Shown: piece by piece, positions 23,889-25,544 of the stretch
Numbering within the stretch: the first letter of the stretch is position 1
Layout of the letters: each line of letters begins with the position of its first letter
Assembly: GCF_041320705.1 (NCBI RefSeq)
Contig: NZ_JBGGTQ010000010.1
Coordinates: 124,001 to 188,000, forward strand
From: Kineococcus mangrovi
GTDB lineage: Bacteria > Actinomycetota > Actinomycetes > Actinomycetales > Kineococcaceae
Direction: 5' to 3'
DNA: 64,000 bases
Program-made: the position numbers and the translations under genes
Notes under the pieces: model-generated
What the model was told of the DNA's origin: nothing
Database searches by the model: none
What the model saw: the letters and a program-made list of their open reading frames with translations, nothing else

Positions 23889-23917
23889 TTGACACAGTTT
23901 ATCTCATCCATGAGATA
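23889..23917 (+). promoter_or_regulatory. Promoter with embedded palindromic operator for the XRE-MurA gene
   Basis: A consensus -35 box TTGACA (23889-23894) is followed after 17 bases by the -10-like GAGATA (23912-23917). The spacer and -10 are occupied by an 18-bp dyad, TATCTCAT-CC-ATGAGATA (23900-23917), with perfect 8-base arms. The predicted transcript start falls within about five bases of the ATG at 23929, so the mRNA is almost leaderless. An AT-rich dyad exactly between the promoter boxes is a typical repressor site for an XRE protein. Confidence 0.7.
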
Positions 23918-23928
23918 GCGTGGGCGTC

Positions 23929-25479
23929 ATGGCAGTCTCCACCGAGCAGCTGACGCCGACCGGCGACCACCTGTCGCAGATCGGCACCCTCATCCGCGAT
24001 GCGCGCAAGCACCGGGGCCTGACGCAGGTCCAGCTGGCCGACCGCCTGGGCACCTCCCAGAGCGCCGTGCACCGCATGGAGCAGGGGCAGCAGAACGTCT
24101 CCATCGACATGCTGCAGCGCGTCGGGCACGCCCTGCAGGACGACATCGTCTCGATCGGCCGTCCCGGCCCGACGCACCTGCGCGTGCACGGGGGCGTCAA
24201 GCTCTCCGGCAGCATCGCGGTGAAGTCGAGCAAGAACGCCGGCGTCGCCCTGCTGTGCGCCGCCCTGCTCAACAAGGGCCGCACGACGCTGCGCGGGGTC
24301 GCCCGCATCCTGGAGATCCACCGCATCCTCGACGTCCTGGCCAGCATCGGCGTGAGGTACGAGTGGGTCAACGAGTCCGACCTCGTCCTCGACGTGCCCA
24401 ACGACCTGGACCTGGCGGCCATGGACGGCGAGACGGCCCGCCGCACCCGCAGCATCATCATGATGCTGGGCCCGCTGCTGCACCGGTACGACGAGTTCGC
24501 CCTCCCCTACGCCGGCGGCTGCGACCTCGGCACCCGGACCGTGGAACCGCACATGGTCGCCCTGCGTCCGTTCGGCCTGCAGGTCACGGCCACCACCGGC
24601 AACTACCACGCGGCGGTGGACCGGGCCGTCACGCCGCAGCGCCCCATCGTGCTGACCGAGCGCGGGGACACCGTCACCGAGAACGCGCTCATGGCCGCGG
24701 CCCGCATGGACGGCGTGACGACCATCCGCAACGCCAGCCCGAACTACATGGTCCAGGACCTGTGCTTCTTCCTCGAGCTGCTCGGGGTGCGCATCGAGGG
24801 CATCGGCACGACGACCCTGGTCGTGCACGGCGTCCCGGACATCTCCGTCGACGTCGAGTACGCCCCGTCGGAGGACCCGGTGGAGGCCATGAGCCTGCTC
24901 ACCGCGGCGATCATCACGCACTCGGAGCTGACGGTGACGCGCGCGCCGATCGAGTTCCTCGAGATCGAGCTGGCCATCCTGGAGGAGATGGGGCTGCGCT
25001 ACGACCTCTCGCCGGAGTACCCCGCGGCCAACGGCCGCACGCGCCTGGTCGACATCACGGTGCACCCCTCCGAGCTCAAGGCCCCGATCGACAAGATCCA
25101 CCCGATGCCGTTCCCGGGCCTGAACATCGACAACCTGCCGTTCTTCGCCGTCATCGCGGCCAGCGCGGAGGGGTCGACCACGGTCCACGACTGGGTCTAC
25201 GACAACCGCGCGATCTACCTCACCGAGCTGAACCGCCTCGGCGCGCGCGTCAAGCTCCTCGACCCGCACCGGGTGCTCGTCGAGGGTCCCACCCGCTGGT
25301 CCGGCGCCGAGGTGCTGTGCCCGCCGGCCCTGCGCCCCGCCGTGGTCGTGCTGCTGGCCATGCTGGCGGCCAAGGGCACCTCGGTGCTGCGCAACGTGGA
25401 CATCATCGCCCGCGGCTACGAGCAGCTCGCCGAGCGCCTGACCCCGCTGGGCGCGCAGATCGAGACGTTCCGCGACTGA
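23929..25479 (+). CDS. MurA-fold enolpyruvyl transferase with N-terminal XRE DNA-binding domain
   Basis: A 516-residue two-domain protein. Residues about 15-70 form an XRE/Cro helix-turn-helix (LIRDARKHRGLTQVQLADRLG...SQSAVHRMEQG). Residues about 83-516 are a full-length UDP-GlcNAc 1-carboxyvinyltransferase-like domain. Expected active-site residues are present: Lys102 in SSKNAG, Cys198 in GGCDLGTR (loop Cys that fosfomycin alkylates in MurA), Arg203, and Arg in the C-terminal ARGYEQL. The usual FPTDxQ segment is changed to FPGLNIDNLP, so it is a divergent form. It may be a second MurA, the only MurA, or an enzyme turned sensor. Its promoter holds a dyad, implying autoregulation. ATG 23929 is preferred over GTG 23920. 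Confidence 0.85.
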   Translation: MAVSTEQLTPTGDHLSQIGTLIRDARKHRGLTQVQLADRLGTSQSAVHRMEQGQQNVSIDMLQRVGHALQDDIVSIGRPGPTHLRVHGGVKLSGSIAVKSSKNAGVALLCAALLNKGRTTLRGVARILEIHRILDVLASIGVRYEWVNESDLVLDVPNDLDLAAMDGETARRTRSIIMMLGPLLHRYDEFALPYAGGCDLGTRTVEPHMVALRPFGLQVTATTGNYHAAVDRAVTPQRPIVLTERGDTVTENALMAAARMDGVTTIRNASPNYMVQDLCFFLELLGVRIEGIGTTTLVVHGVPDISVDVEYAPSEDPVEAMSLLTAAIITHSELTVTRAPIEFLEIELAILEEMGLRYDLSPEYPAANGRTRLVDITVHPSELKAPIDKIHPMPFPGLNIDNLPFFAVIAASAEGSTTVHDWVYDNRAIYLTELNRLGARVKLLDPHRVLVEGPTRWSGAEVLCPPALRPAVVVLLAMLAAKGTSVLRNVDIIARGYEQLAERLTPLGAQIETFRD

Positions 25480-25480
25480 C

Positions 25481-25540
25481 CGCCCGCACGACGAAGGCCC
25501 CCGCGCTCACCCGAGCGCGGGGGCCTTCGTCGTGCGGGCG
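25481..25540. terminator. 27-bp-stem bidirectional terminator
   Basis: Perfect 27-base arms (25481-25507 and 25514-25540) with the loop CACCCG, placed two bases after the XRE-MurA stop and four bases before the HU stop. Serves both convergent genes. Confidence 0.85.
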
Positions 25541-25544
25541 GGGT

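Follow-up and report, generated by a model that had tools for sequence, protein, structure and literature searches.

In the window, by which we mean the whole stretch of 64,000 nucleotides analysed, lies a gene whose product joins a helix-turn-helix (HTH) domain to a domain of the MurA/EPSP-synthase fold. A dyad precedes the gene and a hairpin follows it. The features of the locus are:

23889..23894, + strand: TTGACA, read as a -35 box by the first-pass annotation; 21 nt from the conserved -10 box and not conserved in relatives
23900..23917, no strand: 18-bp dyad TATCTCATCCATGAGATA, candidate operator; 8-base arms perfect, two centre bases differ
23916..23921, + strand: -10 box TAGCGT (TANNNT), in whose TA the dyad ends; the ATG follows 7 nt further on
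23929..25479, + strand: ORF of the HTH-MurA fusion, 516 aa, probable ATG start
23977..24135, + strand: XRE helix-turn-helix domain (residues 17-69), recognition helix TSQSAVHRMEQGQQN
24175..25470, + strand: MurA/EPSP-synthase-fold domain (residues 83-514), active-site residues aligned with E. coli MurA
24538-24540: equivalent of E. coli P121, changed in fusions
24658-24672: equivalents of E. coli K160 to G164, changed in readable fusions
25480..25541, no strand: hairpin (29-bp stem, -74.1 kcal/mol, z -12.35) that separates the fusion gene from the HU gene convergent with it, a probable terminator common to both

The mechanical listing of reading frames starts the fusion at GTG 23920, and the ATG at 23929 is the probable start. 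A profile search of the fusion protein returned HTH_31 (residues 17-69, 1.1e-11), HTH_3 (residues 22-69, 4.6e-12) and PF00275 (residues 87-504, 5.7e-44), which bears out the first-pass description of an XRE HTH joined to a full-length MurA domain. As expected of an autogenous repressor enzyme, a DNA-binding domain is thus present on the enzyme chain. The HTH was also matched by PRK08154, the model of an anaerobic benzoate catabolism regulator, and the best-scoring solved structures for the protein were those of MurA. The fusion passed the cut-off of the MurA subfamily model NF006873 of NCBIfam (319.7 versus 297) and missed that of the murA equivalog TIGR01072 (300.8 versus 392.7); three other fusions scored 300.7-316.2 with the latter model, which two canonical MurA proteins passed. 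With canonical MurA (TIGR01072) the fusion shares the fold, the full length and the catalytic Lys, Asn, Cys, Arg and Asp. It differs by the extra HTH, an identity of ~30%, the changed S162-V163-G164 and the lack of an acid at D369 (E. coli numbering).

Active site and phylogeny of the MurA domain

Residues K102, N103, R174, C198, R203, H208, D401, R427, R469 and R495 of the fusion correspond to K22, N23, R91, C115, R120, H125, D305, R331, R371 and R397 of E. coli MurA (L185), on which the positions were mapped, and all ten were the same in each fusion that could be read there (143-144 of 146). We take K22, N23, R91, C115, R120, D305, R331, R371 and R397 to have a catalytic role in MurA, and the fusion retains these residues. 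What the first-pass annotation had said of the active-site Lys, loop Cys and Arg thus applies to all readable fusions. Its report of a lost FPTDxQ segment was right as to the motif, which has changed to FPGLNIDN, but the catalytic Asp (D305) survives in it as part of NIDN.

Other positions have been remodelled. At the column of D369, where Asp was present in 28 of 28 canonical MurA proteins, 143 of 146 fusions had Pro; CPPALR was found in this region in 206 of 216 fusions, the other 10 being unreadable by the pattern. At S162, V163 and G164, where the 28 canonical proteins hardly vary, the readable fusions uniformly had G, D and T, although the same UDP-sugar is expected as substrate. D123 was changed too, as were P121, L124 and K160, three positions that differ among canonical MurA proteins as well. 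Several of the altered positions presumably border the substrate site on its uridine side. In a quick tree, the root of which is unsure, 41 fusions grouped together (support 100), separated by a long stem from the 28 canonical MurA proteins.

The dyad overlaps the -10 box

The first-pass annotation placed the dyad in the spacer between a perfect -35 box and the -10 box. Both dyad and TTGACA are present, but the dyad extends into the -10 box, and the TTGACA is badly spaced. Within the genus, 5 of 11 genomes, that of the window among them, have TTGAC at this position. Apart from the start codon and the T of TANNNT, only the dyad was strongly conserved over 141 genes. None of the 45 positions further upstream exceeded 0.41 bits and no -35 box emerged; with this result we rejected TTGACA as a conserved -35 box. 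An automatic scan for consensus promoters reported none. The mRNA is probably leaderless, because the ATG lies only 7 nt past the TANNNT box. When the window was searched for TATCTCAN4TGAGATA with up to three mismatches, the dyad was the sole match (0.02 expected).

Conservation of the dyad across fusion genes

Conservation of the dyad in relatives with the fusion had been put forward by the first-pass annotation as a test of its self-repression idea. The test was run, and the dyad was found upstream of 210 of the 216 fusion genes compared. After removal of identical tails and of loci that came in by pattern, 146 different fusion genes remained, many of them near-copies from Streptomyces, and 144 of these had the dyad at 11-14 of 14 positions. 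Shuffled upstream sequences (n=730) reached 10 of 14 positions at best (12 sequences), and the upstream sequences of canonical murA genes (n=27) at most 9. TANNNT was present upstream of 142 of the 146. Among 70 further fusion genes from one large family, 66 carried the dyad at 10 or more of 14 positions, a single gene (L270) having exactly 10. A conserved dyad over the gene's own promoter, as an autogenous repressor enzyme should have, is therefore a feature of the fusion genes at large.

The genes that neighbour the fusion in the window were not found beside it outside the genus in flanks of 1.5-4 kb, from which we conclude that the operator moves together with its gene. Coregulation of the adjacent PLP enzyme and ddl, which the first-pass annotation had left as a possibility, was rejected, as the window contains no second site and the neighbourhood is not conserved in these flanks outside the genus. 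In Streptomyces loci, leuC matches were seen that presumably represent a neighbouring aconitase.

Recognition helix and dyad change and vanish together

Thirteen proteins have Gly in place of Ser in the recognition helix (SQGAV versus SQSAV). All 13 of their genes have A for T at dyad position 3 and T for A at position 16, a symmetric change in both half-sites that gives TAACTCA/TGAGTTA; this site occurred in 2 of 194 genes with Ser and an operator. A further altered helix, TTQSVV in Aeromicrobium (L054), goes with the symmetric site TATCGCA/TGCGATA. The pattern by which helices were read skipped L054 (changed helix), L256 (HTH missing), L190 and L192.

The dyad was lacking in 6 of the 216 genes (L025, L187, L257, L258, L256 and L291). 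Four of these (L025, L187, L257 and L258) come from four of the five sampled genomes of one genus (g27) and have a degenerate recognition helix, with TACGAT, a TANNNT box, still 7 nt ahead of the ATG; in the fifth genome (G402, L247) the helix is intact and the dyad present. In L256 (G344) the HTH is deleted and the dyad gone, and the MurA domain is kept as the only match of the genome, so that regulation appears to have been lost and the enzyme kept. Degeneration or deletion of the HTH thus went with absence of the dyad in 5 of 5 cases. The sixth gene, L291 (G295), has an intact HTH, has lost the left half-site and kept the right one, and lies in a genome with two MurA matches.

We also counted phylogenetically independent pairs on a tree of the MurA domain covering 145 of the 216 genes (L025, L190, L192 and most named Streptomyces loci were left out). 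In nearly all random pairings, 3 of 3 pairs for Gly/Ser and 2 of 2 pairs for HTH loss agreed with the operator, numbers too few for significance by themselves. Together with the single fusion group described above, the distribution of HTH types is most simply explained by a single acquisition of the HTH, followed by its loss where it is missing and its erosion where the helix is degenerate. HTH domains that are intact, altered, degenerate or deleted, with operators to match, form a natural series for the gain and loss of a regulatory domain by an enzyme.

Since helix and operator change and vanish together, binding of the fusion protein to its own dyad is the natural reading. Another protein might bind the dyad, with the HTH of the fusion having a different DNA target or none. 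The same genomes do encode further proteins with a similar HTH, and BldM-WhiI is reported to bind the murA2 promoter in Streptomyces. However, an unrelated binder would leave the joint changes of helix and operator unaccounted for, the dyad does not have the form of a BldM-type site (TCACcCgnncGgGTGA), and it stays with the gene where the neighbouring genes differ; we regard this explanation as extremely unlikely. The position of the dyad over the -10 box makes repression the natural sign. The fusion protein thus very probably binds the dyad and represses its own gene, as the first-pass annotation had suggested and as dyad conservation and helix-operator co-variation, that is, comparison between genes, now strongly support.

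Number of targets

Of 56 fusion genomes, 30 had an exact site at the fusion gene; 24 of the other 26 carried a site at 11-13 of 14 positions, and the remaining two (G043 and G282) belong to the cases without the dyad described above. Elsewhere in the 56 genomes there were 3 exact sites, and 14 genomes without the fusion contained 5, in 3 genomes. A regulon therefore finds no support among exact sites. Weak sites were scanned in the genome of the window only, where ATCTCAN4TGAGAT had one exact match, none with one mismatch and 18 with two mismatches, compared with 2 for the reversed control, an excess that leaves room for weak further targets.

This excess is what could be expected of a fusion protein that binds the dyad through its HTH but regulates cell-wall genes more widely, or even activates them, and XRE proteins in general often have several targets. 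Yet exact sites away from the fusion gene were as scarce as the figures above indicate (3 in 56 genomes with the fusion, 5 in 14 without), and the overlap with the -10 box is that expected of a repressor. We therefore consider a wider regulator very unlikely and retain repression of its own gene through a single dedicated site as the preferred reading.

Sole-MurA status

The genome of the window is 99.9% complete and encodes two PF00275 proteins, AroA and the fusion. A PF00275 match of 350 bits was considered as a second MurA and rejected, as it passes the aroA model TIGR01356 (362.4 versus 287.25). The search for a second murA, which the first-pass annotation had proposed with no forecast of its result, thus found none in this genome. 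In other genomes a 350-bit PF00275 match was taken as AroA because it did not match the fusion protein, whereas canonical MurA does. The fusion was present in each of the 11 genomes of the genus, none of which encoded a further protein that matched it as canonical MurA does; one genome (1,060 contigs) had no visible AroA, and one had two extra PF00275 pieces without a match to the fusion protein.

Across the class, the fusion was present in 80 of 246 genomes. By eye from the genome table, it was the sole match in 27 of the 80, and also in G043, where it lies in two frames; 52 had at least one further MurA-like match, among the matches listed. The split of the sole MurA gene of G043 (L025) over two frames may be a sequencing fault or real. 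In f39, which by nearness to Aeromicrobium and Mumia loci appears to be the Nocardioidaceae, the fusion was the sole match in 21 of 22 sampled genomes, and in f50 in both of two. One match only was found in 78 of 112 fusion genomes of f17 (counted by eye, some being incomplete drafts). In the phylum, 296 genomes gave 16 fusion matches, all from the same class (the class was read for matching genomes only). A PF00275 search of 29 chosen genomes found just an AroA-level match and the fusion in 27, G043 with its pieces included, and canonical MurA in the two expected to have one. MurB was found in 10 of 10 genomes tested, in 2 of them below the curated cut-off. By gene content, then, the fusion is the sole candidate for the MurA step in the fusion-only genomes, and MurB was present in those examined for it.

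MurB needs the product of MurA. A fusion that is the only MurA of a cell with MurB should therefore make that product, and gene content suggests that it is probably a working MurA. A different precedent is BzdR, whose DNA-binding domain likewise precedes a domain that descends from a metabolic enzyme (PMC3602430), there a shikimate-kinase-like one. BzdR has lost the enzyme activity and regulates benzoate genes. By analogy, the MurA domain of the fusion would be a ligand sensor without catalysis, and the long stem of the fusion clade, the lost acid at D369, the changed S162, V163 and G164 and the missed murA equivalog cut-off would fit such a pseudo-enzyme. In contrast to BzdR, however, the fusion and AroA are the only proteins of this kind in fusion-only genomes, which have retained MurB where it was looked for. 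No variation was seen at the equivalents of K22, N23, C115, R120, D305, R331, R371 and R397, and in G344, after loss of HTH and operator, the MurA domain persists as the single match of the genome. Active-site residues and sole-MurA status thus both speak against a pseudo-enzyme, which we judge highly improbable.

Discussion

Our comparisons make it likely, to a high degree of confidence, that the fusion is this bacterium's only MurA and also its own repressor, acting through the dyad at 23900-23917. In many soil actinobacteria, sequence comparison indicates, the first cell-wall enzyme very probably downregulates itself by means of its own DNA-reading domain and a matching promoter dyad, and in several groups the fusion appears to be the cell's only such enzyme. 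In the open-licence literature we found none of the HTH, the dyad, the helix co-variation or the sole-MurA status in print.

Streptomyces MurA2 (SCO5998; sven5810 / vnz_28735) evidently belongs to the same family on sequence grounds, SCO5998 being linked by name. The Streptomyces loci are 73-75% identical over the fusion and have the dyad. All 25 genomes of the Streptomyces-type group f34 had two or three matches, among the matches listed, and there a second MurA is present. In the available parts of the published accounts, S. coelicolor is described as having two such transferases, of which MurA2 is one (PMC12161575), BldM-WhiI footprints lie on murA2 (PMC4125116), SCO5998 has a SigB-dependent promoter (PMC8346170), DmdR1 control of murA2 is predicted, and the phenotype of whiI overexpression is not reproduced by overexpression of murA2 (PMC11005364); in these parts the control of MurA2 is described with no mention of an HTH or of self-binding. 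Since BldM-WhiI and SigB also act on murA2, the dyad promoter would not be the sole control in Streptomyces. Among enzymes that repress genes, PutA of E. coli, the trifunctional proline utilisation enzyme, is catabolic, has a ribbon-helix-helix domain and represses the put regulon with proline as the switch, whereas the fusion has an XRE domain, belongs to cell-wall biosynthesis and appears to have one target.

In the mechanism that we propose, the free enzyme, presumably as a dimer, would sit on the dyad at 23900-23917. The first bases of the -10 box belong to the dyad, where bound enzyme would block RNA polymerase. Negative autoregulation through one dedicated site would hold the MurA level constant. 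In MurA structures the beginning of the chain is close to the interdomain hinge, so closure driven by a ligand could conceivably alter the HTH dimer. The first-pass annotation had suggested that the protein senses UDP-GlcNAc, PEP or an intermediate, an idea for and against which the comparisons carry no evidence. More tentatively, and as a possibility rather than a probability, the enzyme may report its catalytic state to its own promoter: UDP-GlcNAc would close the MurA domains round the hinge beside the HTH linker, and either substrate-filled enzyme would come off the DNA or product-blocked enzyme would stay on it. The remodelled uridine side would then be part of the sensor, and a feedback loop made of one protein would set the committed step in whole actinobacterial families.

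With a sole MurA that is, on the present evidence, also its own repressor, control of precursor entry could be tested with one protein and one 18-bp site. This applies to lineages without another MurA and to Streptomyces, where the fusion sits beside one.

MurA carries out the committed first step of peptidoglycan synthesis and is the target of fosfomycin, and Asp at position 115 marks the fosfomycin-insensitive type. The Cys at this position in the fusion presumably predicts sensitivity at the target. Among the 28 canonical MurA proteins (27 actinobacterial and one from E. coli), position 115 was Cys in 15 and Asp in 13.
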